A stretch of DNA of 34,901 nt from Chloroflexota bacterium (GTDB lineage: Bacteria; Chloroflexota; Dehalococcoidia; UBA2979), in NCBI GenBank assembly GCA_009840965.1, contig VXMT01000226.1, forward strand, positions 1,930 to 36,830, given 5' to 3'. Position numbers and translations under genes: made by a program. This document shows positions 1 to 23,759 of the stretch, one piece after another. Each line of letters starts with the position of its first letter. The first letter of the stretch is position 1. The notes under the pieces were generated by a model. That model did not search any database. It saw nothing but the letters and a program-made list of their open reading frames with translations, and was not told the DNA's origin.

Positions 1-73
1 GGTCGCGGGCCCGTCAAACACAACCCCGGGCCGGCGCTGCCCGCCGGGCGTGCTGTTCGGATCCTCGCGGGGC

Positions 74-862
74 CTAGCGGCCGTGGAAGATCGGCTGGCG
101 CTTCTCGGCGAAGGCGGCGGCGGCCTCGCGCGTGTCGTCCAGCTTCATCAGCCCCTGCATGGCCTGCGGGAAGGCGATGCCGAACTGGTAGCTCTCCGGG
201 CGCGGCCGCGCCATCATCAGCTGCTGCTTCGTGACCTGGACGTGGACCGGCGGCAGGCCGGCGATCTCCTGCGCCAGCTCCATCGCGGTGCCCATGATGT
301 CCTCGGGCGCGACGACGTGGTTGACGAGGCCCAGCTCGTAGGCGCGCTGCGCCGTGATCTGGTGGCCGCGCAGCACGATCTCGGAGCCGGGCAGCCAGGG
401 CAGGTTGTTGAGGATCGGCACGAAGGCCGGGCCGATGATGCCGGTCGGCAGCTCGGACATGGCGAAGCGGGCGTTGTCCGCGGAGACGACGATGTCGGAG
501 CCGCAGCACATGTACCAGCCGGCGCCCCAGGCGCCGCCCTGCACGGCGGAGATGATCGGCTTGTCGGTCTCCGGCACCAGGTAGAGGCCGAAGATCTCGG
601 CGCGGGAGGCGCCGCGCGCGCCCATGGTGTTACCGCCCCGCTCGGCCTGCTCGCGGATGTCGCGGCCGGCGCAGAAGATGCGGCCCTCGGCGCTGAGCAC
701 GACGCAGCGCACGTTGTCGTCGGCCATCGCCTCCATCCAGGCGCCGCCGAGCTCGTCGCCCATCTGCTCGCCGAAGGCGTTGAGCCGCTCGGGCCGGTTC
801 ATGATGATGTTGGCGACGTGACCGTCCACCTCGTACTTGACGTACTCTGCCTCGTAGGCCAT
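74..862 (-). CDS. Enoyl-CoA hydratase/isomerase (crotonase) family protein, paralogue 1
   Basis: 262 aa ORF; NRPERLNAFG, GRIFCAGRDIREQ, GGAWGAGWYMCCGSDIV and ARFAMSELPTGIIG are crotonase-fold landmarks. Confidence 0.9.
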   Translation of the reverse strand: MAYEAEYVKYEVDGHVANIIMNRPERLNAFGEQMGDELGGAWMEAMADDNVRCVVLSAEGRIFCAGRDIREQAERGGNTMGARGASRAEIFGLYLVPETDKPIISAVQGGAWGAGWYMCCGSDIVVSADNARFAMSELPTGIIGPAFVPILNNLPWLPGSEIVLRGHQITAQRAYELGLVNHVVAPEDIMGTAMELAQEIAGLPPVHVQVTKQQLMMARPRPESYQFGIAFPQAMQGLMKLDDTREAAAAFAEKRQPIFHGR

Positions 863-1118
863 CTGCGCTCCCTGTTCCTCGCTCCTGCGTCTGTCCGATG
901 CTCGTTCGCTGCCGCTCGCCGCGGGTCCGGGCGCCGACCGAACCGGCGGCGTGCCCGAACACTCCGCGACCGGCCCGCACCCTACACGACGAGCCGGACA
1001 GCGGCAACGCGCGCGAGCGCCCGGCGCGCCGCGTTGCGCCGAGCCGTGCTATACCGGCTCGGGCCGCCGCCGCACTGATGCCGGCGCGCAGCGGCGCAGC
1101 GTGGACGGGAGCAGCGAG

Positions 1119-2210
1119 ATGCAATCGAAAGCCGCGATCTTCACCGAGCCGGGCCAGCCACTTCTCGTCGAGGACGTCGAGTACGGCGAGCCGGGGCCGG
1201 GCGAGGTGCTGGTGCGCAACTTCGCCTCCGGCATCTGCCACTCGCAGTTGCACCAGATGCACGGCCCGCGCGCCGTGCCCGGCCCCTTCATGCTCGGCCA
1301 CGAGGCGACGAGCGAGGTCGTCGCGGTCGGCGAGGGCGTCGAACACGTCGCTACGGGCGATATCGTCTTCCTCACCTGGATCCCGCGCGACGCCGCGCCC
1401 GGCGACGGCCAGCCACCGCAGCTCACCGGCGAGATTCGCTGGCGAGGCGAGAACATCGCGCGCATGATCTACACCTGGTCGGAGCACTCCCTCGCCCGCC
1501 AGGAGTACGTCGTGCGCGTGCCCGACGACGTGGCCCGCGACGTGACCAGCATCATCGGCTGCGCCGTGATGACGGGCGCGGGCGCCGTGCTCAACACGGC
1601 GAACGTGCAGCGCGGCCAGTCCGCCGCCGTCTTCGGCGTCGGCGGCGTCGGGCTGTCCGCGATCAGCGCGCTCGCCGTGCGCGAGGCGGACCCGATCATC
1701 GCCGTCGACCTCGACGACGAGAAGCTGGAGCTGGCGAGGCGCTTCGGCGCGACGGTCGGCGTGAACGCCGCCGATCGCGACGCGGTGACCGCGATCGGCG
1801 AGCTGACGGGGCCGGGCACGACGAACTGGTTCAACCAGCCGACGAGCGGGCTGGAGTTCGCCTTCGACTGCATCGGCAAGGAGATCACGATGCACCAGAT
1901 CGCCGAGGCGGTGCGGCCCGGCGACATCACGAACACGCGCGGCGGCACGGCGGTGCTGGTCGGCGTGCCGGACGGCGAGGCCTCGCTCAACATGCTCGAT
2001 ATCCTGCGGGGCGAGAAGCGCTTCATCGGCTCCTACGGCGGCTCCTGCCGCCCCGATCGCGACTTCCCGGAGTTCATCCGCTGGCACAAGGAGGGAATGC
2101 TCGACCTCGACTTGCTGGTCAGCGAGCGCGTCGCCCTCGACGACATCAACGACGCCACGGAGCGCCTGCGCCGCGGCGAGATCGCCGGCCGCTCGATCAT
2201 CGAGTTCTAG
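1119..2210 (+). CDS. Zinc-type alcohol dehydrogenase family protein (MDR superfamily)
   Basis: Internal ATG of ORF 951..2210 (MQSKAAIFTEPGQPLLVEDVEYGEPGPGEVLV); GHEATSEVVAVGEGV and nucleotide-binding GVGGVGLSAI motifs. Confidence 0.88.
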   Translation: MQSKAAIFTEPGQPLLVEDVEYGEPGPGEVLVRNFASGICHSQLHQMHGPRAVPGPFMLGHEATSEVVAVGEGVEHVATGDIVFLTWIPRDAAPGDGQPPQLTGEIRWRGENIARMIYTWSEHSLARQEYVVRVPDDVARDVTSIIGCAVMTGAGAVLNTANVQRGQSAAVFGVGGVGLSAISALAVREADPIIAVDLDDEKLELARRFGATVGVNAADRDAVTAIGELTGPGTTNWFNQPTSGLEFAFDCIGKEITMHQIAEAVRPGDITNTRGGTAVLVGVPDGEASLNMLDILRGEKRFIGSYGGSCRPDRDFPEFIRWHKEGMLDLDLLVSERVALDDINDATERLRRGEIAGRSIIEF

Positions 2211-2220
2211 TGGCGAGGCG

Positions 2221-3018
2221 CTAGCGGCCCCGGAACACCGGCGTGCGCCGCTCGGCGAAGGCGGCCGCGGCCTCTCGCGTGTCCTCGAGCGTCATCAGGC
2301 CCTGGAAGGCCTGCGGGAACGCGATGTCGAACTGGTAGGTGGCGGGCCGGCGGCGCGCCATCATCAGCTGCTGCTTGGTCACCTGCACGTGCACCGGCGG
2401 CAGCCCCGCGATCTCCTCGGCGAGGTCGCGCGCGGTGCTCAGCACCGCGTCCGCGGGGACGACGTGGTTGACGAGGCCGAGTGCATGGGCCCGCTCTGCC
2501 GAGACCTGGTGGCCGCGCAGCACGATCTCCGAGCCGGGCAGCCAGGGGAGGTTGTTGAGGATCGGCACGAACGCCGGCCCGATGATGCCCGTCGGGAGGT
2601 GGGACATCGCGAAGCGGGCGTCGGCGGCGGCGACCACGATGTCGCTGCCGCAGCACATGAACCAGCCCGCGCCCCAGGCGCCGCCGCGCACGGCGGCGAT
2701 GATCGGCTTGTCCGTCTCGGGCACGTGGAAGAAACCGAGGACGTCTGCGCGCGAGGCGGCGACGCGGCCGTCGGAGCGCCGCTGCCGCCCCTCGAGCTCT
2801 CGCTGCTCGCGGATGTCGCGACCGGCGCAGAAGACGCGGCCCTCGCCGGTGAGGATGACGCAGCGCACATCGTCGTCGCCCATCGCCTCGAGCCAGGCCC
2901 CGCCGAGCTCGTCGGCGGTCTGCTCGCCGAACGCGTTGAGCCGCTCCGGGCGGTTCATCGTGATCGTGGCGACGTGGCCGTCCAGCTCGTACCTGACGAA
3001 CTCCGCCTCGTAAGCCAT
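2221..3018 (-). CDS. Crotonase family protein, paralogue 2
   Basis: Starts at internal Met MAYEAEFVRYELDGHVATITMNRPERLNAFGEQ; clearly paralogous to 74..862. Confidence 0.9.
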   Translation of the reverse strand: MAYEAEFVRYELDGHVATITMNRPERLNAFGEQTADELGGAWLEAMGDDDVRCVILTGEGRVFCAGRDIREQRELEGRQRRSDGRVAASRADVLGFFHVPETDKPIIAAVRGGAWGAGWFMCCGSDIVVAAADARFAMSHLPTGIIGPAFVPILNNLPWLPGSEIVLRGHQVSAERAHALGLVNHVVPADAVLSTARDLAEEIAGLPPVHVQVTKQQLMMARRRPATYQFDIAFPQAFQGLMTLEDTREAAAAFAERRTPVFRGR

Positions 3019-3041
3019 CGGGGGACCGCTCCTCCCGCTCG

Positions 3042-3989
3042 CTACGCCTCGCCGGTCAGGAACCTGCGGGGCACCTCGATCATCATCAGGTCGATCGTGT
3101 CCTGCGGGAGGCCGTCCCCCAGCAGCGCGGGGATCGCGGTGGTGGAGAGGAAGGTCCAGCCGTTCGGGCCCGTCGGGTCGTGCGGCACCTCGGTCTGGCC
3201 GACGCGCAGCAGCGGCGTCGTGCCGTCGTGGCCGAGCATGATCTTGTCCGCGTAGCCGCGCCGGATCAGCTCCTTCACGCTCGCGTTGCGCTCCTCCCAG
3301 CTGGCCCGCCCCGGGCGGCCGGGGTAGCGATCCATCGAGAGGTAGACGCCGGCCTTCAGCAGGTCCTCGAGGTAGTCGACATCCGTCGTGTCGGCGGAGT
3401 GGCCGATCGCGACGCGGTCCATCGGCACGCCCTCCTCCTGGAAGATCTCGACCTGGCGGCGGCCCACCTCGAGCAGCGCCCAGTGGTGCGTCGAGATCGG
3501 GGTGCCGGTCCGCTTGCAGGCGCGCGCCGCGCCCCGGATCGTCGTGTCGTACGCCTCGGTGACGCCCTCCATGTCGTTGGCGACCTTGATCGCGCCGGCC
3601 CTGATGTCGGTGTCGCCGATCCCGACTTCGATCTCGCGCACGAAGATCTCGGCGATCTCGTCCGGCTCGCGGTTGGTGAAGGACATCGGGGCGACGCGCC
3701 ACATGCCGGTCGCGCAGACGACCTGCATGCCGGACAGCTCCGACATCTCGCGCATCAGCGCCACGTCGCGCCCGAGGTCCGGCGTCGTCAGGTCGATCAG
3801 CGTCTGCACGCCCACGGCCCGCGCGGCGGTGAGCCGCTCGAGCATCACGCGGCGGCTCGCGTCGAAGTCGTACATCCACGGATACCAGACGTTGTCCGCG
3901 CTCTGGCAGGTGAAGACGTGCTCGTGGCTGAGCGTGAACCCCAGCTCGCTGCCGTCAATCGGTCCAAGAACGGTCTCAACCTGCGCCAT
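3042..3989 (-). CDS. Phosphotriesterase-family (amidohydrolase superfamily) protein
   Basis: 315 aa; N-terminal LGFTLSHEHVF metal site, AGAIKVAND (candidate bridging Lys), ISTHH, IGHSADTTD, MLGHDG. Confidence 0.85.
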   Translation of the reverse strand: MAQVETVLGPIDGSELGFTLSHEHVFTCQSADNVWYPWMYDFDASRRVMLERLTAARAVGVQTLIDLTTPDLGRDVALMREMSELSGMQVVCATGMWRVAPMSFTNREPDEIAEIFVREIEVGIGDTDIRAGAIKVANDMEGVTEAYDTTIRGAARACKRTGTPISTHHWALLEVGRRQVEIFQEEGVPMDRVAIGHSADTTDVDYLEDLLKAGVYLSMDRYPGRPGRASWEERNASVKELIRRGYADKIMLGHDGTTPLLRVGQTEVPHDPTGPNGWTFLSTTAIPALLGDGLPQDTIDLMMIEVPRRFLTGEA

Positions 3990-4075
3990 CTTGTCCTCCG
4001 CTTCTCGCCGCGTGCACCTGAGCGGCGGCGCCGTCAGGATATGCTCTCGGCGCGAATCTTGCGGGAGGCACGGCG

Positions 4076-5794
4076 ATGGCGGTCGATCGGGTGCTCGTCG
4101 AGAAGCACGTCACGGTCACGATGCGCGACGGCGTCGAGACGCGCGGCGACCTCTACCGGCCCGCCGAGGGCGCGCCCGTCCCCGGTATCGTCTGCCGCAC
4201 GCCCTACGACAAGGAGGCGATCGGCGCCACGCGCGTCCTGCCCGCGCCGCTCAAGTTCGCCGAGGCCGGCTACGCCGTGCTCGTCGTCGACGTACGCGGC
4301 CGCTACTCCTCGGACGGCGTGTTCGAGCCCTTCCACAACGAGGGCCGCGACGGCTACGACACGGTCGAGTGGCTGGCCGCGCAGCCGTTCTGCGACGGCA
4401 ACGTCGGCATCTTCGGCCTCTCCTACTACGGCGCGACGACGCTGCTGGCGACACGCGAGCAGCCGCCCTCGCTGCGCTGCGCCGCCGCGATCATCACCGC
4501 CAGCGACTACTTCGACGACTGGACGCACTACGGCGGGGCGCTGCAGCTCGGCTTCAGCGGCACCTGGGGCATGGGCCTCGCCGCCGCCCAGTTGCTGCGC
4601 GAGGACAGCGCCGCCTCCGAGGCCGACGCGGAGGCGCTCGCCCTCGCGATGGCCTCGCCGCTGGAGACACTGGCCCACCGGCCGTTGAGCGAAATGCCGG
4701 GCATGTCGATCCCCGGCGTCGCGCCCTACTGGGCGGAGTGGCTGGAGCACGACCGCCGCGACGAGCACTGGGAGGCGCTGAGGCTCTCAAGAGACTACGC
4801 CGACTTCCGGGTGCCCGTGATGCACGTCGGTGGCTGGTTCGACCTCTTCACGCTCGGCACCGTGCGCAACTTCCAGGGCATGCACGCCGCGGGCGTCGCC
4901 GAGCAGCGGCTCTGGATGGGGCCCTGGTCGCACACCTCGTACGAGCGCTACCACGGCGAGGTCGATTTCGGCGGGACCGCGCCGGTCGGGCTCTGCGGCA
5001 TCGACCTGGCCTACCTCGCCTTCTTCGACGAGCACCTGCGCGGGTTGGCCCCCGAGGAGCCGCAGCCGACCGTGCGCTACTTCCTGATGGGCTCGAACGA
5101 GTGGCGCGACGCCACCGCCTGGCCGCCCGCGGAGGCGCGCGAGCAGGCGCGCTACCTGCGCTCGGGCGGCGAGGCGCACGGCGCGCGCGGCGACGGCCGC
5201 CTCGAGGACGCACCTGCGGAAGGTGACGAGCCGGCCGACCGCTACCTCTACGACCCGGAGCGGCCCGTGCCGACCGAGGGCGGCTCGCTGCTCCAGCAGT
5301 CGGTCGGCCAGCCGGGCCCGCGTGATCAGTCGCAGATCGAGGCGCGCGACGACGTGCTTTGCTACACCACCGCGCCGCTCGAGCGGCCGCTCACGGTCGC
5401 CGGACCGGTCACGGTCGAGCTGTGGGCCGTCACCGACGCGCCGGACACGGACTGGACGGCCAAGCTCGTCGTCGTCGAGCCGGACGGGCGCACGATCTCG
5501 CTCTGCGACGGCATCCGCCGCGCCAGCTTCCGCGAGTCGCTCACGGACCCCTCGCCGGTGACGCCGGGCGAGGCCTACCGCTACGAGATCGAGCTGGGCA
5601 GCACGGCCTACCGCTTCGGTACGGGTGACCGCCTGCGCCTGCAGGTCTCAAGCTCGAACTTCCCGCGCTTCGACGCCAACCCGAACACCGGCGAGCCCTC
5701 GTGGAAGGCCGTCGGGACGCGTCCGGCCGTGCAACAGGTGCTGCACGACGCCGCGCACCCCTCGGCGCTGCGCCTCTGGCGGCTGGACGAGTAA
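4076..5794 (+). CDS. CocE/NonD family hydrolase (X-Pro dipeptidyl-peptidase-like)
   Basis: 572 aa; MRDGVETRGDLYRP, RTPYDKEA, DVRGRYSSDG, GLSYYGATTLLA nucleophile elbow, MHVGGWFD; C-terminal jelly-roll domain. Confidence 0.9.
   Translation: MAVDRVLVEKHVTVTMRDGVETRGDLYRPAEGAPVPGIVCRTPYDKEAIGATRVLPAPLKFAEAGYAVLVVDVRGRYSSDGVFEPFHNEGRDGYDTVEWLAAQPFCDGNVGIFGLSYYGATTLLATREQPPSLRCAAAIITASDYFDDWTHYGGALQLGFSGTWGMGLAAAQLLREDSAASEADAEALALAMASPLETLAHRPLSEMPGMSIPGVAPYWAEWLEHDRRDEHWEALRLSRDYADFRVPVMHVGGWFDLFTLGTVRNFQGMHAAGVAEQRLWMGPWSHTSYERYHGEVDFGGTAPVGLCGIDLAYLAFFDEHLRGLAPEEPQPTVRYFLMGSNEWRDATAWPPAEAREQARYLRSGGEAHGARGDGRLEDAPAEGDEPADRYLYDPERPVPTEGGSLLQQSVGQPGPRDQSQIEARDDVLCYTTAPLERPLTVAGPVTVELWAVTDAPDTDWTAKLVVVEPDGRTISLCDGIRRASFRESLTDPSPVTPGEAYRYEIELGSTAYRFGTGDRLRLQVSSSNFPRFDANPNTGEPSWKAVGTRPAVQQVLHDAAHPSALRLWRLDE
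5760..5794 (+). repeat. Left copy of direct repeat flanking the NYN gene (native CocE 3' end, ...SALRLWRLDE*)
   Basis: cctcggcgctgcgcctctggcggctggacgagtaa aligns with 6891..6925 with few mismatches. Confidence 0.8.
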
Positions 5795-6018
5795 GCCTCA
5801 ACGTCACCGGCGGTCAAGGGGAGAACTCGGACACTCGACCGCGGCCTCGCAATGCGCGGGTTTGGGAACGGGATGCGACTCGGCGTTGATCGGAGTGCGC
5901 CTATGTGCGAGATTAGGATATCTGTTCGCCTCGCGGCTTGAGCGGCTGACGAACCGAAGGCGTGCTGCGCGGAGCGCGCTCATGGCGCGAATCTTCACGG
6001 TTAGGGGGGCTGGTCGGA

Positions 6019-6861
6019 ATGGGCATCTCTGGAGGGGGCGCCTACCTGGGCCCGCAGGAGGTCAGATACCTCTTCGTCGACGGTGGCTATCTGAGGAAGG
6101 TCGCGGAGAAGTTCAGCCGCGAGTTCTTCGACGGGGCCGACCTACCCATCAACTACCAAGCGCTCGGCAGCCAATTCACGAGGTGCTTCTACTACGACTG
6201 TCTTCCCGCCCAGTCAGCGAACGGGGAATCGGTCACTAACGATGCGCGCCTGGAACGGCAGCGCGAGCAGCTGAGCGAGATTCGGTCGCTTCATGGGTGG
6301 CACGTCGTGGAGGGCGTCATGGCTGGCACCGGCAATCGGGCGCGCCAGAAACAAGTGGATGTCCACATAGCCGTCGACCTCTTGACGCACTCTTACCGGA
6401 AGAACATGCACCGGGCGGCGTTCATCGCTGGCGACCAGGACTTCAAGCCGCTCGTCGAGGCAGTCGTTCGCGACGGGATGCTCATCGAGATTTGGTTTGA
6501 GAGATCATCGGCGAGCCGCGACCTGCTCGATGCTGCGGACGGCCGGAAGCCTCTCGACTTGTACGAGTTCTATCGATACTTGGAGAGGCCATTCAAGGAT
6601 GCGCATCCACTGCCGAAGCGGTGGGTCAATGAGTCGTGGAGGGTCATGGCGGGGGAACTCCAGCGGTCCGGGGAGTGCCGTGAAGGTTCTGTTGACCTGT
6701 ACTGCCACGGTGGTGAGTACACGATCGTCGGCCCCAGCCAAGGCGGCGGAGGTCGCTACCGTTGCATGGGGTACGACAATCTTGATCTGCTCGAGCGAGT
6801 CTTCGCGTCGCAATTCGGCGAGATCACGTGGCGGAAGGCTCCCGTAGCCCCGACGGGCTAA
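6019..6861 (+). CDS. NYN (PIN-like) domain putative RNase
   Basis: ORF 5962..6861, probable start near MGISGGGAYLGPQEVRYLFVDGGYLRKV; acidic-site pattern LFVDGGYL ... QVDVHIAVDLL ... AFIAGDQDFKPLV. Start codon uncertain. Visibly lower GC than neighbours. Confidence 0.75.
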   Translation: MGISGGGAYLGPQEVRYLFVDGGYLRKVAEKFSREFFDGADLPINYQALGSQFTRCFYYDCLPAQSANGESVTNDARLERQREQLSEIRSLHGWHVVEGVMAGTGNRARQKQVDVHIAVDLLTHSYRKNMHRAAFIAGDQDFKPLVEAVVRDGMLIEIWFERSSASRDLLDAADGRKPLDLYEFYRYLERPFKDAHPLPKRWVNESWRVMAGELQRSGECREGSVDLYCHGGEYTIVGPSQGGGGRYRCMGYDNLDLLERVFASQFGEITWRKAPVAPTG

Positions 6862-6890
6862 CGTCCAGGATCTCGGTAGTTGGCCGGTAG

Positions 6891-6925
6891 CCTCGGCGCT
6901 ACGGCTCTGGCTGCTGGACGAGTAG
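6891..6925 (+). repeat. Right copy of CocE 3'-end direct repeat (SALRLWLLDE*)
   Basis: cctcggcgctacggctctggctgctggacgagtag; encodes SALRLWLLDE-stop in the equivalent frame but has no upstream CocE coding region. Confidence 0.8.
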
Positions 6926-6945
6926 CGCCCGCGCGGCGCTCGCGG

Positions 6946-7824
6946 TCAGGCCTTCGGCCGCATTCCGATCTCGCGCGGCGGCATGCCGAGGATGGCGCGC
7001 GCCTCGTCGGGCGTCGCCACCTCGCGGCCGGCCATGTGCGTCATCTCGACGGCCATCTCGACGTGCTCGACGTTCGTGTAGGCGTCGGCGCCGCGTTTGC
7101 CGTCGAGCATCGGGTTCTCGCCGATGCCGGTGCGGATATGGCCGCCGGTGGCGGCGGCGAGCAGGCTCGTGCGGCGCAGCGTCGGCTCGCCCGGAATGCC
7201 GTCGTAGACGGTGTTGAACCACTGGCAGGTCACCCCGGAGGGCACGAGGTCGAGGTACATCTTGAGGCCGTCGAGGCCGGCCGGCGGGCCGAGCGAGAAC
7301 TCGTTCCAGAAGATCTTGAGGGCCAGCGTGTCGTCGATCAGGCCCTGCTCGCGGAGGCGTGCGATGTGCCGCATGTGGCCGACGTGCCGCACGCCGATGC
7401 TGTAGCTGACGTTGAGCGCCCGCAGATCCTCGATGAACTTCGCGACGAAGCTCACGTCGTGCCCGGTGATGCCTTCCTCCGGGAAGATGTCAACCGTCGC
7501 CAGCTCCAGGCCCTCTTCCTCGTTGCGCGCCAGCTCGAAGAGGTGCGAGGTGTTCTCCTCGTGGGCGCCGCGCTGCGTCGGGTAGACCAGCACGTCCGGG
7601 CACTCCTCGCGGATCAGGCGGTAGCACTCGAGGTACATCTCCGTCCCGTGCTGCCAGAGGTTCTCGCCCTCCTCGTCGCGCGGGTGGTAGTGGATGATCG
7701 CGGCGCCCGCCTTCGCGGCGGCGATGCCGTCGCGCGCGCCTTCCTCGGGCCCGTAGGGGACGTGCGGGTTGTCCTCCTTGCGCGCCGACTCGTTGATCGA
7801 AGCCTCGATGATCAGCTTGTCCAT
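6946..7824 (-). CDS. BKACE family (DUF849, 3-keto-5-aminohexanoate cleavage-like) enzyme
   Basis: 292 aa; KLIIEASINES...NPHVPYGPEEGARDGIAAAKAGAAIIHYHPRDEEG. Confidence 0.85.
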   Translation of the reverse strand: MDKLIIEASINESARKEDNPHVPYGPEEGARDGIAAAKAGAAIIHYHPRDEEGENLWQHGTEMYLECYRLIREECPDVLVYPTQRGAHEENTSHLFELARNEEEGLELATVDIFPEEGITGHDVSFVAKFIEDLRALNVSYSIGVRHVGHMRHIARLREQGLIDDTLALKIFWNEFSLGPPAGLDGLKMYLDLVPSGVTCQWFNTVYDGIPGEPTLRRTSLLAAATGGHIRTGIGENPMLDGKRGADAYTNVEHVEMAVEMTHMAGREVATPDEARAILGMPPREIGMRPKA

Positions 7825-7864
7825 CGCCCGCTCCTCCCGCTCGCCCCGCGCCGCCCGGAACCGC

Positions 7865-9061
7865 TCAGCGCGCGGCGGTCACGCCCTTGTCGTGCAGTTG
7901 CTCGATGTCCGGCCAGTCGTAGCCGAGCTCGAGCAGGATCTCCTCGGTGTGCTGGCCCAGCTCCGGCGCGGGCGCGCGCACGCCGCCCGGCGTCTCGCTG
8001 AGCTGCACCGACATGCCGATCGTGCGGTGGCCGGGGAAGGTCGGGTGATCGAGGTCGATCAGGTAGCCGTTCTGCCAGTGCTGCGGCTCGGCGGACACGC
8101 CCGCGTAGTCGTAGACCGGACCGCAGGGAACCTCCGCCTCGACGAGGGCGGCCAGCCACTCCTCGCGCGGCTTCGTGGCGAAGACGGCGCTCAGCTCCCC
8201 GGCCAGCCACGCGCCGTTGTCGAAGCGCGCGAAGGGGTCCGCGGAGCGCGGATCGTCGATCAGGTCCTCGCGCTCCATCACGCGGCAGATCCTCGGCCAG
8301 AACTTCGGATCGAGGCCGGCGATGGTGAACCACTCGCCGTCGGAGGCCTGGTACCAGCTGAACGCGGCGTTGCGCGAGGCGCCGGGATTGCGCCGCTCCT
8401 GCTTGCCGGTGTGCAGGTAGGTGAGCAGCGAGAAGCCCTGCAGCGAGATCATCGCGCCGAGCTGGGAGACGTCCACCTTCTGGCCCACGCCGAAGCGCTC
8501 GCGGGCGAGCAGCGCCGTCATCACGCCGTAGGCGAGCGTCATCCCGCCGACCTGGTCGGCGAGCCCCCAGGCAACCGAGGTGGGCGTCGCTCCCGGTCCG
8601 CCGCCCTGCGCGACGAGGGCGCCGCTCATGCCCTGCGCGACGTGGTCGAAGGAGCCGCGGCTGCTCCACTCGCCGTCCGGGCCGAAGCCGCTGTTGACCG
8701 CGTAGATCAGCCGCGGGTTGAGCGGCGCCATCTCGTCGTAGCCGATCCTGAGGCGGTCGAGGACGCCGGGGCGGAAGTTCTCCACCACCACGTCGACCTT
8801 CGGCACCAGCTTGCGGATGACCTCACGGCCCTCCTCGGTGCGGAGCTCGAGCGTGATGCTGCGCTTGCCGCGGTTGAGCGCCTCGAAGTAGGCGGAGAAG
8901 CCGTCGGGCAGCCGCATGACGGAGCGGCCCGGGTCGCCGTCGCCGGGCAGCTCCACCTTGAGCACCTCGGCGCCCATGTCGGCGAGCAGTTGCGTGCCGT
9001 GTGGTCCGTTCTGGTAGCGGGTGAAGTCGAGGATGCGGATCCCCTCGAGGGGTGACGGCAT
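7865..9061 (-). CDS. CaiB/BaiF family (class III) CoA transferase
   Basis: Internal Met of ORF 7865..11860: MPSPLEGIRILDFTRYQNGPHGTQLLADMGAEVLKVELPGDGDPGR; NRGKRSITLEL; ENFRPGVLDRLRIGYDEM. Confidence 0.92.
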   Translation of the reverse strand: MPSPLEGIRILDFTRYQNGPHGTQLLADMGAEVLKVELPGDGDPGRSVMRLPDGFSAYFEALNRGKRSITLELRTEEGREVIRKLVPKVDVVVENFRPGVLDRLRIGYDEMAPLNPRLIYAVNSGFGPDGEWSSRGSFDHVAQGMSGALVAQGGGPGATPTSVAWGLADQVGGMTLAYGVMTALLARERFGVGQKVDVSQLGAMISLQGFSLLTYLHTGKQERRNPGASRNAAFSWYQASDGEWFTIAGLDPKFWPRICRVMEREDLIDDPRSADPFARFDNGAWLAGELSAVFATKPREEWLAALVEAEVPCGPVYDYAGVSAEPQHWQNGYLIDLDHPTFPGHRTIGMSVQLSETPGGVRAPAPELGQHTEEILLELGYDWPDIEQLHDKGVTAAR

Positions 9062-9274
9062 GAGCTGCTCCTTCCGCGCCGCGATCGGCCACGATCGGGC
9101 GCGTGCCGTTCGTCGTTCTCCGGAGCAAGACTTAGCACAGACGGAGATCGCCTGTCGCGCCCGCAGGCCCGGCTGCCCTCGGGCATCGGAACAACGGGTG
9201 GATTCGCTACAATGCACGGCGGATCGCGCCGCAGACGCCGCGAACGCCGAGCGCCCGACGAAGGAGAGCAGCGC

Positions 9275-11578
9275 ATGGTCGCCACAGACAAGCCGTACGA
9301 GGTGATCGGAACCCGCCCCGTCCGCCACGATGGAGCCGACAAGGTGACCGGACGCGCGCAGTACGGCGCCGACGTGCGGCTGCCGCGCATGCTCTACGGC
9401 CGCGTCAAGCGCAGCCCCGTCGCGCATGCGCGCCTGATCAGCATCGACACCTCGAAGGCGGAAGCCCTCGAGGGCGTACAGGCCGTGATCACGGCCGCCG
9501 ACATGCCGGACCCCGGCGACCGCATCGTCTCGACGATCCGCGGCCTGACGCCGCTGCGCTGGCTGCGCGGCTTCCTGCTCGCCAACGAGAAGCTGCTCTT
9601 CCGCGGCCACCCGATCGCCGCCGTCTGCGCCACTGACCCGCACATCGCCGAGGACGCCATCGACCTGATCGAGGTCGAGTACGAGGAGCTGCCGCCCGTG
9701 CTCGACGTGCAGGAGGCGATGTCCGAGGCGGCCCCGGTGCTGCTCGAGGACCTGCGCACCGAAGTGCTGGCGCAGGCCGCCTACAACTCCCCGGGTGATG
9801 CGGCGACCGACCAGCAGACCAACATCGCCAAGCACCTCGTGATGGAGCTCGGCGACACCGGGGCGGGCTTCGCCGAGGCGGACATCGTCCTCGAGGGCGA
9901 GTACGGCACGACGATGGCCCACCAGGGCTACATCGAGCCGCACGCCTCGACGGCGATGTGGCAGCAGGACGGCGAGCTGATCGTCTGGACCTCGACGCAG
10001 GGCGCCTTCGGCATCCGTGACAACCTCTCGATGATCCTCGATCTGCCCGTCTCGCAGGTGAAGGTGATCCCGACGGAGATCGGCGGCGGCTTCGGCGGCA
10101 AGCTGAAGCTCTACTACGAGCCGCTCGCGGCGCTGCTCTCCCGCAAGACCGGCCACCCGGTCAAGATGCAGATGACCCGCACCGAGGTCCTCGAGGCGAG
10201 CGGCCCGACCTCCGGGACGCACCACCGCGTGAAGATCGGCGCGAAGAACGACGGCACGATCACCGCCGTCGAGGGCCACTTCGCCTACGAGGCCGGCGCC
10301 TACCCGGGCTCGCCCTACGTCGCCGGCGCGCGCTGCGCCTTCGGCCCCTACGACATCCCCAACCAGTTCGTCGAGGCCTGGGACGTCGTCCTCAACAAGC
10401 CGCAGGTCGCCGCCTATCGCGCGCCCGGCGCGCCCTCCTCGGAGTTCGCGGTCGAGTCGCTGCTCGACGATCTGGCCGAGCGGCTGGAAATGGACCCGAT
10501 GGACCTCCGGCTCAAGAACTCCGCCGTCGACGGCACGCGCCGCACCGACGGCGCCACGTTCGGCTCGATCGGCGCCCGGGAGGTGATGGAGGAGATCAAG
10601 AACAGCGAGCACTACCGCTCCGAGCTGCAGGGCGAGAACCGCGGCCGCGGCGTCGCGATGGGCTTCTGGTTCAACGGCGGTAACGAGTCCAGCGCCTACG
10701 CCAACGTCAACGCCGACGGCACGGTCAGCCTCGTCACCGGCTCGGTGGACATCGGCGGCCAGCGCGCCGCGCTGGCGATGACGCTCGCGGAGACGCTCGG
10801 CCTCACGGCAGAGGACGTGCACCCCTCGGTGGCGTCGGACACGGACTCGATCGGCTTCACCGGCAACACCGGCGGCAGCCGCACCACCTTCGCGACCGGC
10901 TGGGCCGCCTACGAGGCGGCGATGGACATCCGCCGCCAGCTCGAGGAGCGCGCCGCACAGATTTGGGAGTGCGAGCGCGACGACGTGAGCTACGGCGACG
11001 ACGGCGTGATTCGCGGCCCCGCGGACGACGACGGCAACGAGCGCTCCCTGACCTTCAAGGAGATCGCGGGGCAGCTCGGTATGACCGGCGGGATGATCCA
11101 GGGCCGCGCCAACGTCAAGCCCACGACCGTCGGGCCGGCCTTCGCCGGGCACATCGTCGACGTCGAGGTCGACCCGGAGACGGGCAAGGTCGACATCCTG
11201 CGCTACACCGCGGTGCAGGACGTGGGCACGGCCGTCCACCCCTCGTACGTCGAGGGCCAGATCCAGGGCGGCGTCCAGCAGGGCGTCGGCATGGCGCTGA
11301 GCGAGGGCTACGACTTCGACGAGACCGGCCGCATGCGCAACGCGAGCCTGCTCGACTACCGCATGCCGACCGCGCTCGACCTGCCGATGATCGAGACGAT
11401 CCTCGTCGAGGTGCCGAATCCCGGCCACCCCTACGGCGTGCGCGGCGTCGGCGAGGTGCCGATCGTGCCGCCGCTGGCGGCCGTCGCCAACGCGATCGAG
11501 GACGCGATCGGCGTGCGCATGAGCAAGCTGCCCGCCACGCCCGACGCGATCCTCGCGGAGCTCTACCCGGAGGAGTAG
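9275..11578 (+). CDS. Xanthine dehydrogenase-family molybdopterin-binding (large) subunit
   Basis: ATG preceded by aaggag; VRHDGADKVTGRAQYGADV, GGGFGGKLKLYYEPLAALLSRKTGHPVKM, AYRAPGAP, GVGEVPIVPPLAAVANAI. Confidence 0.92.
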   Translation: MVATDKPYEVIGTRPVRHDGADKVTGRAQYGADVRLPRMLYGRVKRSPVAHARLISIDTSKAEALEGVQAVITAADMPDPGDRIVSTIRGLTPLRWLRGFLLANEKLLFRGHPIAAVCATDPHIAEDAIDLIEVEYEELPPVLDVQEAMSEAAPVLLEDLRTEVLAQAAYNSPGDAATDQQTNIAKHLVMELGDTGAGFAEADIVLEGEYGTTMAHQGYIEPHASTAMWQQDGELIVWTSTQGAFGIRDNLSMILDLPVSQVKVIPTEIGGGFGGKLKLYYEPLAALLSRKTGHPVKMQMTRTEVLEASGPTSGTHHRVKIGAKNDGTITAVEGHFAYEAGAYPGSPYVAGARCAFGPYDIPNQFVEAWDVVLNKPQVAAYRAPGAPSSEFAVESLLDDLAERLEMDPMDLRLKNSAVDGTRRTDGATFGSIGAREVMEEIKNSEHYRSELQGENRGRGVAMGFWFNGGNESSAYANVNADGTVSLVTGSVDIGGQRAALAMTLAETLGLTAEDVHPSVASDTDSIGFTGNTGGSRTTFATGWAAYEAAMDIRRQLEERAAQIWECERDDVSYGDDGVIRGPADDDGNERSLTFKEIAGQLGMTGGMIQGRANVKPTTVGPAFAGHIVDVEVDPETGKVDILRYTAVQDVGTAVHPSYVEGQIQGGVQQGVGMALSEGYDFDETGRMRNASLLDYRMPTALDLPMIETILVEVPNPGHPYGVRGVGEVPIVPPLAAVANAIEDAIGVRMSKLPATPDAILAELYPEE

Positions 11579-11625
11579 GCCGGCCGGAGGGCCAGCCGCC
11601 TGGTCGCCGCTCGGCGGGAGTTGCG

Positions 11626-12585
11626 ATGTACCTGAACGAGTTCGCGCCGGACCTTGACGCCCTCGACATGACGGGCGCCGAGGAGTTCGAGAGCCTGCTG
11701 CGGAGCGCGAGCGATCTCGGGATCCCGCATGACCGCGACGTGCGCTACGTCTCGCGTAACACCGTGGTGCAGCGGCAGCGCTTCCACTTCCTGGAGTGGG
11801 GCGACCCGGCCGGCCCGCCGCTGCTGCTGTTGCACGGCGGCAACCAGTCCTCGCACTCATGGGACCTCGTGAGCCTCCACCTCGCCGATCGCTACCGCGT
11901 GCTGGCGCTCGACCAGCGCGGGCACGGCGACAGCGAGTGGGCGCGCGACGCCGCCTACGGCATCGGCCACATGGCCGAGGACGCGATCGCCTTCATCGCG
12001 CAGCAGGGCCTCGATCAGCCGATCATGATGGGTCACTCGATGGGCGGACGCGTCACCATGGAAGTGCTGAAGCGCCGCCCGGGCATCGCCCGCGCCGCCG
12101 TCTTCGTCGATGTCGGCCCGGTGATCAGCGGCCCGGGCACGCAGGCGATCCGCAACTTCATCCAGCGCAACGTCGAGTTCGACGACCTTGAAGCGTTCAT
12201 CGACCGGGTCGCGGAGTACGACCCGTACCGCACGCGCGAGCACATCACGCGCACGGTCCGCTACAACCTGATCCGGCGCGCCGACGGCCGCTACATCGCG
12301 AAGTCCGACCGCATCCTGCACGACCCCGGCTTCCGCCGCGTTCGCGAGGGCGACGGCGTCCCGCTGAGCATCGGCCTCGAGGTGGTGCGGGGCTTCGACC
12401 TCCCGGCGCTCGTGATCCGCGGGGGCGACTCGAACGTGCTGACCGAGCAGGGCGCGGAGGAGTTCGCGGCGGCGATGCCTCAGGGGCAACTGCAGACCGT
12501 GCCGGACTGCGGACATAACGTTCACTCCCAGAACACGCCCGGCTTCCTCGAAGCGGTGACGCCGTTCCTCGACGCGCTGACGTAG
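11626..12585 (+). CDS. Alpha/beta hydrolase
   Basis: Internal ATG of ORF 10963..12585; LLLLHGGNQSSHSWD, LDQRGHGDSEW, MMGHSMGGRVTME nucleophile elbow, C-terminal DCGHNVH. Confidence 0.88.
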   Translation: MYLNEFAPDLDALDMTGAEEFESLLRSASDLGIPHDRDVRYVSRNTVVQRQRFHFLEWGDPAGPPLLLLHGGNQSSHSWDLVSLHLADRYRVLALDQRGHGDSEWARDAAYGIGHMAEDAIAFIAQQGLDQPIMMGHSMGGRVTMEVLKRRPGIARAAVFVDVGPVISGPGTQAIRNFIQRNVEFDDLEAFIDRVAEYDPYRTREHITRTVRYNLIRRADGRYIAKSDRILHDPGFRRVREGDGVPLSIGLEVVRGFDLPALVIRGGDSNVLTEQGAEEFAAAMPQGQLQTVPDCGHNVHSQNTPGFLEAVTPFLDALT

Positions 12586-12673
12586 CGACCTCTGCGAAAC
12601 CCCCTCCTCAGGGCAGCGAGCGCATCCCTTCCGGTCCCCTCTCCCCGAGGGAGAGGGTTAGGGTGAGGGAGGG
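12583..12673. repeat. Dispersed palindromic (REP-like) repeat, copy 1
   Basis: tagcgacctctgcg...ggcagcgagcg...ccggtcccctctccccgagggagagggt; closely matches 34691..34760. Confidence 0.75.
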
Positions 12674-12726
12674 TCGCCCTCCAGGATTGCGTTGTGCCAT
12701 CGGGGCTCTCGGAGGTGCGCGGGAGT

Positions 12727-12773
12727 CCTCCCCCTCACCCCCGCCCTCTCCCCAGGGAGAGGGAGCCGGATCG
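12727..12773. repeat. Inverted arm of the same repeat family (REPIN/MITE-like partner)
   Basis: ctccccctcacccccgccctctccccagggagaggga approximates the reverse complement of 12635..12668. Confidence 0.65.
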
Positions 12774-12833
12774 GGCTTGTGGGAGCTTCGCAACGGTCCC
12801 GCGTTGCGACGCGGCCGGACGCCGGACAGCAAG

Positions 12834-21748: not shown

Positions 21749-21849
21749 CGGGGCTACGGTACCACTAGGCCAGAGCGGCAAGATGGTGTCGGCACGGTCG
21801 TTCGGGTTGTCGATTACCCTCGGTGTATCGTCTCCAGTGGGAACCGAAC

Positions 21850-23688
21850 ATGCGACTGCTCAGGTCCGGGCTTCTGTCTGCCGTCGTCCTCGTCGTTCTT
21901 GCCTCGTTCGGCGAGGTTGCGCCCGCTGGGGCAACGTCGTCGGAGGAGGCGCCCGTCGTGCAGGAGATCACTACCCTCCTGCACCCCGGGCTGAATGAAG
22001 TCGGCTGGGTGAGCGAGGAAACTGCGTCGAGTGCGCTGTTCGACGCGCTCCCTGAGTTGATCGCTGTCTCGGCGTGGGACGCTTCGGAGCGACGAGCTCG
22101 ACGAGCGCTCCGGGGCAAATACGAGGAACTGCCCACCTTGAAGCCCGGCATGGGGTTGTGGTTGCGGATCGGCGGATCGGTATCGGTCGAGTGGACGCGA
22201 CCGGTGACCGCCGATGGCATCCTGCTGTCGCTGCAACGGGGGAGCAACCTTATCGCCTGGACAACGAGCGGTGAGGTCGCCAACGCCCTGAGCAAGTTCG
22301 AAGGCGCGGTGACTGGGGCTTGGCGATGGGATCCGGCCAGGCGGGCGTACGCTCGCTACGAGCTTGACTCCTCGACCGCGGCCGGGGGTCTGCCGCAGCC
22401 ACAGCCGGGCGAAGCGCTGTGGGTATCCGCATCGAAGACCGTCCACTGGTGGCAGCCCGGCACGGACCGTCCGGAGTTGGTCTTCCTCGACGGTGTATCG
22501 GAGGGCAAGCAGGATGAACTGATCGAGGATATGGAGATCATCCGGGCCGCCTATGCCGAATACTTCGGCGTACAGACGTCAGCGTTCACGGCGTACATCG
22601 GGGGATCGGTGGAGGCGATCGCACCTGCGTACCGGCAGGTCACCGGAAGGGAGCTCCCGGATGTAATCACGCGGGCTGACCCACCCGAGACCTGCGGGAC
22701 CGTGAGCAGCGGCGCGGTGTTCGTACTCACCTACTGCGCAGGTATCCCCAGCTTCACGGGCAAGGGAGCGACTCACATTCTCGCGCACGAATACTTCCAC
22801 GTCCTGCAGCAGCAGCTCGCTTCCGATCGCGGTACCGAGGGGCCAACATGGCTCCTGGAAGGCACGGCGCTGTACGCCGAGCATCTCGCCAGCGAGACAT
22901 TCGATCCCTACTCGGCACGCCAGGCGGCGAGCTGGGGCGATGGGATGCTTGGCAACGCCATCCGCCGCGCCGCAACGCACTGGAGTGAGTTCCCCATCTC
23001 TCTCCCCGACATCGAAACCTACTCGGCGTTCCATACTGCAGAGGGGATCTTTGGGACCTACGATCACTACCAGGTCGCACTCCTGGGGGCGAAGTGGCTC
23101 GCCGACCGCGCGGGAGAGCAGGCTCTCGCCGACTACTACCGCCTGCTGCCGTCCGTCGACCACTGGCACGACGCGTTTGAGAGCGCATTTGGCATTTCCA
23201 TTGCCGACTTCTACGAGGCATTCGCGACGTACCCCGACGAACTCGGTCCTCGCAATCGCGTGCGGGGCGTCGTAAATGGTCCGGACGGAGGTCCACTCGA
23301 GGGCGTCAGGGTGACCGCGCATCGGCTCAGCCTTCATGGCTACCGTGACTACGATGCGAGGAGCTTCAGGGAAGCGCCCATCGACGTTGAGACCTGGACG
23401 GATGAGCATGGAGCGTTCGAGATGTGGGTGCGGCCCGGAAGGTACTTCTTCGTGGTGTCCCGCGCGGATCCGAAGCCCGCGATTGTCGACGGAGCACTCC
23501 CCGACACGCACGTAAGCGAGCGGGAGTGCGATCTCGCGATACGCACCGACCGAGGTCTGACGGGCTGGTCGGGCCCCCGGGAATCCTCGGATCTGTACGA
23601 GTTGGTCGGCACTACCAATATCTGGGCGGCGATCACTATCCCGAGCAACGTGGCGAGCTTCGGCCGCTCGTTCTGCGCCGAACCCTGA
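21850..23688 (+). CDS. Secreted gluzincin-like metalloprotease with duplicated N-terminal modules and C-terminal carboxypeptidase-regulatory-like domain
   Basis: Signal peptide MRLLRSGLLSAVVLVVLASFGEVAPAGA; AHEYFHVLQQQ at 22786..22800 followed by WLLEGTALYAEHL; NRVRGVVNGPDGGPLEGVRVTAHRL. Confidence 0.75.
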   Translation: MRLLRSGLLSAVVLVVLASFGEVAPAGATSSEEAPVVQEITTLLHPGLNEVGWVSEETASSALFDALPELIAVSAWDASERRARRALRGKYEELPTLKPGMGLWLRIGGSVSVEWTRPVTADGILLSLQRGSNLIAWTTSGEVANALSKFEGAVTGAWRWDPARRAYARYELDSSTAAGGLPQPQPGEALWVSASKTVHWWQPGTDRPELVFLDGVSEGKQDELIEDMEIIRAAYAEYFGVQTSAFTAYIGGSVEAIAPAYRQVTGRELPDVITRADPPETCGTVSSGAVFVLTYCAGIPSFTGKGATHILAHEYFHVLQQQLASDRGTEGPTWLLEGTALYAEHLASETFDPYSARQAASWGDGMLGNAIRRAATHWSEFPISLPDIETYSAFHTAEGIFGTYDHYQVALLGAKWLADRAGEQALADYYRLLPSVDHWHDAFESAFGISIADFYEAFATYPDELGPRNRVRGVVNGPDGGPLEGVRVTAHRLSLHGYRDYDARSFREAPIDVETWTDEHGAFEMWVRPGRYFFVVSRADPKPAIVDGALPDTHVSERECDLAIRTDRGLTGWSGPRESSDLYELVGTTNIWAAITIPSNVASFGRSFCAEP

Positions 23689-23759
23689 TCCCTCGCCACT
23701 CCTCGCGTTGACCGCCACTGCGCCCGTGCCTACGCTCGCGACGCAGCGAGGAGGCGCCC

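Follow-up and report, generated by a model that had tools for sequence, protein, structure and literature searches.

In rhs loci, Jackson et al. (2009) explained the displacement of C-terminal tips by a circle that carries a conserved segment and cargo and was proposed to integrate by a single crossover, shunting the old end downstream (PMC2935791). The cocE locus described here resembles these loci: a putative new 3' end adjoins cargo and the old end lies downstream as a gene fragment. The repeats are of variable length, a single crossover of a circle can be proposed and only close relatives are involved. However, its target is an ordinary hydrolase gene whose new tail hardly differs from the old one, and what was gained would be a passenger NYN gene instead of a new toxin tip. 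At T6SS loci, effector displacement by homology-facilitated illegitimate recombination was proposed (Kirchberger et al., 2017; PMC5361080). These loci also share with cocE a homologous anchor on one side, an illegitimate joint on the other, a native remnant downstream and the lack of a specific integration site, whereas the cocE locus has no effector/immunity pair and is anchored in the tail of a metabolic gene.

Two further systems are comparable. Some islands, such as SGI1 at trmE and its relatives at dusA, integrate at the 3' ends of protein genes (PMC8409611). As in our case, insertion is at a gene end, and the element can restore that end and leave direct repeats. Unlike these islands, the insert at cocE has no integrase and no recurring core, and consists of one gene only. 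P2-like phages carry antiviral hotspots of 1-5 kb (PMC9122126). The small, fast-turnover cargo lying between two conserved genes in P2-like phages and P4 satellites is similar to that at cocE, and NYN relatives adjoin gpD in three P2-like contigs. However, the cocE insert lies in a chromosome, and the surrounding segment that was examined holds no phage genes. The locus is best read as the capture of a solitary NYN gene by end displacement at an ordinary gene, a known process in a new setting.

The two cocE tails and the empty site

The window, the whole stretch of 34,901 nt that was analysed, comes from a Chloroflexota bacterium, and its relevant features are listed in Table 1.

Table 1. Features of the cocE locus, in window coordinates
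Feature	Position	Strand	Basis
cocE, CocE/NonD hydrolase (S15 + PepX_C), 572 aa; target gene, still complete	4076..5794	+	TIGR00976 E=5.6e-141; PF02129, PF08530
Left tail copy SALRLWRLDE*, TAA, joined to cocE; putative replacement tail	5760..5794	+	sequence comparison
Inserted segment, 1096 bp, GC ~0.62-0.64; single copy in genome, absent from G002 empty site	5795..6890	+	
NYN-domain RNase-like gene, 280 aa from ATG 6019	6019..6861	+	PF01936 E=5.2e-12
Right tail copy SALRLWLLDE*, TAG; putatively displaced native cocE 3' end	6891..6925	+	G002 comparison
Imperfect hairpin across NYN 3' end and right tail copy; arms 6842-6853 / 6893-6904	6842..6904	.	
BKACE gene, native downstream neighbour, convergent with cocE	6946..7824	-	PF05853 E=5e-47; synteny

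A direct repeat was found at 5760-5793 and 6891-6924, on the same strand and 1131 bp apart, with 31/34 identical positions. Its ungapped score was 25, against a maximum of 17 in 200 dinucleotide shuffles of both flanks, confirming the claim of a preliminary description that the last ~34 nt of cocE recur after the NYN gene. Aligned over 35 sites, the copies differed at four: G/A in ctg/cta, C/G in cgc/cgg, G/T in cgg/ctg (Arg/Leu) and the last base of taa/tag, exactly as listed there. The similarity ends at the stop codon and its upstream limit is CCTCGG. A search with the repeat over the whole genome (2.69 Mb, up to three mismatches) returned exactly two matches, the window's own copies. The right copy is a 34-nt non-coding remnant after the cargo, and the hairpin that includes part of it had a folding energy of -24.9 kcal/mol on the bottom strand (z = -2.6, of modest significance). 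Base 6901, the sole difference of the right tail from the sister species, perfects the hairpin pairing there.

The DNA between the tails is a single copy in its genome and is lower in GC (0.62-0.64) than the flanks (mostly 0.70-0.73), and it holds a single sizeable gene, the NYN gene, without an integrase; the lower GC and the lone gene without an integrase had been noticed before and were borne out here. Six-frame reading of its left part gave neither an integrase gene nor any recognisable integrase remnant. Elsewhere in the window, a further lower-GC stretch (21751-23750, 0.63-0.66) has an ORF with a weak Peptidase_MA_2 match alone.

One of three genus relatives, G002, whose cocE orthologue is 94% identical in amino acids, presents the empty site. 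There, cocE with a single tail, CCTCGGCGCTGCGGCTCTGGCTGCTGGACGAGTAG, is directly followed by the BKACE gene, the 1096-bp insert is absent, and there is no second full cocE. BLASTN of window 3001-9000 against this locus gave two blocks, 3001-5793 and 6891-8432, which overlapped by 34 nt on the G002 contig. The right copy differed from the G002 tail at 1/35 sites (tail position 11, window 6901) and the left copy at 3/35 (positions 14, 22 and 35; window 5773, 5781 and 5794), the last being the final base of the stop codon. This comparison agrees with the right tail being native and the left one incoming, although it is weak by itself. All four variable positions are compatible with one crossover between positions 11 and 14, a pattern with at most one switch being expected by chance in 5/16 cases for four sites. 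Furthermore, the divergence at fourfold sites between the window genome (G000) and G002 was 17-21% (~18%), with which drift after insertion may also be compatible. Such drift should hit the free right copy harder than the coding left copy.

The LRLW-LDE form of the tail was confined to these two genomes. In the other genus relatives cocE ends in SVWVLPSGS* (G001) and VVQVLPAGS* (G003), and the two other cocE paralogues of the window genome, both on another contig, also end differently. Therefore, any donor must be a close relative. In 44 family genomes the tail core occurred three times, twice in the window and once at the empty site of G002. It was not found in IMG/VR. The left-end DNA of the insert had no further copy in the same 44 genomes, giving short weak matches only, and no donor cocE carrying the left-copy variants was found.

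Judged from these alignments, ~1.1 kb of lower-GC DNA with one NYN gene is a recent insertion at the cocE 3' end. The event is either a gain in the window lineage or a loss in G002, of which the former is the simpler explanation, since the other family members do not have the NYN gene. Vertical inheritance of this gene, named earlier as a history that would speak against displacement, was not seen in the genus or the family. We infer that the left tail arrived with the cargo.

The NYN gene and its relatives

Alignment with relatives indicated that the NYN gene likely starts at ATG 6019 and not at GTG 5962, which is also open and in frame. D21, D114, D139 and D141 were among 21 invariant columns in an alignment of 26 proteins. 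The AlphaFold model (pLDDT 89.8), with 2qip (E 6e-9) and the Marf1 NYN domain 5yaa (E 3e-4) as the best PDB matches, confidently predicts an NYN/PIN-like fold. From family and context, the protein would be RNA-cleaving.

In a 60-genome sample, no close NYN copy was found within the family (best E ~1e-4 to 1e-3, <30% identity); matches outside it were better, yet reached 36% identity at most. A scan of 85,000 species genomes gave 24 relatives, patchy over many phyla and mostly lower in GC than their surroundings. In the tree, the window protein was nearest to those of a Planctomyces MAG (L065) and a Saprospiraceae MAG (L066), with support of 89/93, although this grouping was not firm. A phage or plasmid origin of the insert DNA was rejected, as there were no matches save one NYN protein, 39% identical, that a Nostoc plasmid encodes. 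On the Nostoc plasmid p057_C (L061, 1-1976), an NYN homologue adjoins a PDDEXK nuclease gene.

The contexts of the relatives were diverse. In L066, the NYN gene is an integron cassette within an array (1-12810), flanked on either side by repeated 120-nt attC sites. At two other loci (L069 and L080), attC-like sequences adjoin the NYN gene. Five clear relatives were on viral contigs, among which L264 and L265 look like one phage; in L264-L266 the NYN gene adjoins the late-control gene D of P2-like phages, as recognised by eye from translations. On the other two viral contigs the family recurs among known defence genes, namely PtuA, HerA, type I REase and WYL genes (L267), and type I methylase and specificity subunits with WYL genes (L268), which is not the case at the window. 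Judged by its family and context, the window gene is probably anti-phage-type defence cargo. The earlier suggestion of anti-phage cargo gains support from those relatives that lie in defence islands, in a P2-type prophage and in an integron array, the activity itself being predicted.

A strict protein-level search of 26 other NYN loci gave duplicated gene tails at L065 and L264/L265 only, besides the integron array L066. In L065, the NYN gene is flanked by two ~91 nt, 98.9% identical copies of the 3' end of an oxidoreductase gene, named as Gfo/Idh-type by eye from its C-terminus. This site is empty, with one tail, in two relatives (G074 and G076), and in a third (G075) it holds other cargo, a DUF433 gene and a DUF5615 gene. 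In G075 (L260, 16405-17960), the DUF433 and DUF5615 (PIN-like) pair is accompanied by another ORF at the oxidoreductase 3' side. Comparison of L260 with L065 and L261 showed this side to be variable among close Planctomyces relatives: empty, DUF433/DUF5615/ORF as in L260, or NYN with an integron-integrase remnant. The L065 case may have another history, because its tails are nearly identical, the MAG contig is only 3.3 kb long and the NYN gene has beside it the truncated C-terminus of an integron integrase (TIGR02249 E=1e-10).

In L264/L265, the P2-like gpD precedes the NYN gene, after which comes a second, diverged gpD tail (L264, 4630-6068). The tails extend over 174 nt (~175) at the DNA level, with 68% amino-acid identity over 68 aa, and differ at many sites, mostly synonymous. 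The second tail is still in frame and open to its own stop; therefore, before displacement it was the coding end. Although post hoc and limited to few cases in unrelated hosts, the comparison suggests that the stranded-tail signature is not confined to the window.

Proposed gene-end displacement and its rivals

We consider that the ~1.1-kb NYN segment was added at the cocE 3' end by gene-end displacement independent of an integrase, a proposal that in our judgement stands at about an even chance. The incoming DNA, either a linear piece or a small circle, would have borne a homologous cocE tail and then the NYN gene. Recombination inside the homologous tail would have given cocE the incoming tail and left the native one stranded downstream of the cargo. 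This step, presumably acting on short homology, could be homology-facilitated illegitimate recombination or, for a circle, a single crossover. An old end that lies beyond the new one and points the same way was found in the window, a relative with an undisplaced end in G002, and fragments of variable length without a site-specific core in three cases (34, ~91 and ~175 nt at cocE, the Gfo/Idh-type gene and gpD, respectively). The stretches examined at the window, L065 and L264/L265 had no intact integrase beside the cargo. Different targets and lengths argue against a fixed att site and, with no intact integrase by the cargo, we favour recombination through a homologous gene end over site-specific integration. 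Against displacement, no donor was found, the L065 case may differ in its history, no further gene-end-only duplication was recognised in the ~1.2 Mb of genome examined, and the 4/35 tail differences at 18% fourfold divergence are also compatible with an old target duplication. The displacement model of the preliminary description, in which the new DNA brings a functional tail and pushes the former one aside, is supported by the single tail of the G002 site and by the greater nearness of the right copy to it, and is essentially right in outline.

The main rival is site-specific integration with the integrase in trans, to which we give a minor but real share of probability. The cocE 3' end would be an attB in the style of tRNA genes, an attP would carry a cocE-like tail, and the crossover would fall in the shared CCTCGGCGCT(G/A)CG, the integrase acting in trans or having been deleted later (a CIME-like remnant). 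Indeed, the two tails behave like attL/attR, the left restoring the gene and the right being native; the polymorphism pattern fits one crossover, and the similarity stops exactly at the stop codon. However, the insert is without an integrase, and the only two tyrosine recombinases found in the 88% complete genome were Xer-like, beside enolase and topA-like genes. Elsewhere in the 44 family genomes the core was seen at the G002 empty site only and the left-end DNA had short weak matches only, while the related NYN cases are at other genes with repeats of ~91 and ~175 nt. Integration of the Xer/dif type was rejected, as the cocE target is GC-rich and unlike dif and the recombinases found are only Xer-like.

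An island dedicated to integration at gene termini, as raised in the preliminary description, was not supported: there was no recombinase, no core shared across the cases and no second insert in the genome parts examined, and repeats that vary in length from gene to gene are better explained by recombination through homologous gene ends. In ~1.2 Mb of the window genome, no other duplication of a gene end only was recognised, L210 and some masked small contigs aside; the gene-end-anchored repeats looked at were tandem paralogues or longer similarities. Five of the 472 genes tested had a flanking repeat of equal score, two of these repeats being hundreds of nt long. An example of ordinary paralogue repeats is given by the similar 3' ends of two enoyl-CoA hydratase genes in the window (77-862 and 2224-3045, minus strand), which are 75% identical and near each other on the same strand. 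A transposon or multicopy element was ruled out, as the insert is a single copy and showed no transposase and no terminal inverted repeats. As for a known RNA element, there were two sub-threshold Rfam matches only, both outside the insert.

Rather unlikely, in our estimate, is a target-site duplication, in which a staggered break in the cocE tail (~34-nt overhangs) was filled in while foreign DNA was captured, so that both copies are native and diverged later. An early event would fit the 4/35 differences at 18% fourfold divergence, and the L065 tail copies are nearly identical. However, three of the four changes fall in the coding copy, where one of them alters an amino acid, and just one in the free copy, the opposite of what relaxed constraint predicts. 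Moreover, the end of the repeat at the stop codon would be a coincidence, and the prophage tails differ mostly at synonymous sites, like two homologous coding ends.

The integron cassettes of the relatives raise the idea that an integron integrase placed the NYN cassette at a secondary site. L066 is such a cassette, L065 adjoins an integron-integrase remnant, and in the window an R'-like GTTAGGG precedes the start and an R''-like GGCTAAC lies at the stop. Even so, we regard this as very improbable: no attC in the window passed at 6/7 consensus and 6/7 pairing and the candidate folds were weak, cassettes insert without duplicating 34 nt of their target, the empty tail has neither GTT nor GAT, and no integron integrase was found in the genome. 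Equally hard to credit is the decay of a tandem second cocE down to its last 34 nt with the NYN gene between, the alternative named in the preliminary description: the genome does have two other cocE paralogues, but the sister has one cocE with such a tail directly before BKACE, the right copy matches that tail, and genus relatives and paralogues end otherwise.

Going beyond gene-end displacement at this locus, the NYN nuclease could represent a class of single-gene cargo that hitch-hikes on homologous 3' ends and swaps tails in chromosomes and prophages of unrelated bacteria without a recombinase of its own, possibly with its nuclease activity or its own ends promoting the event. We hold this generalisation to be doubtful indeed.

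Implications for the gain of small defence genes

Little is understood of how small solitary defence-type genes, in the absence of integrases, arrive at new places in a chromosome. Here, a pair of sister species shows the site with and without the insert, together with both tails, at the resolution of single bases, and at other genes two members of this cargo family carry the signature as well. Should stranded tails prove to be a common footprint, they would offer a simple genome-wide way to spot defence genes gained of late and the routes from their donors, and end displacement would be extended from toxin loci to ordinary genes.
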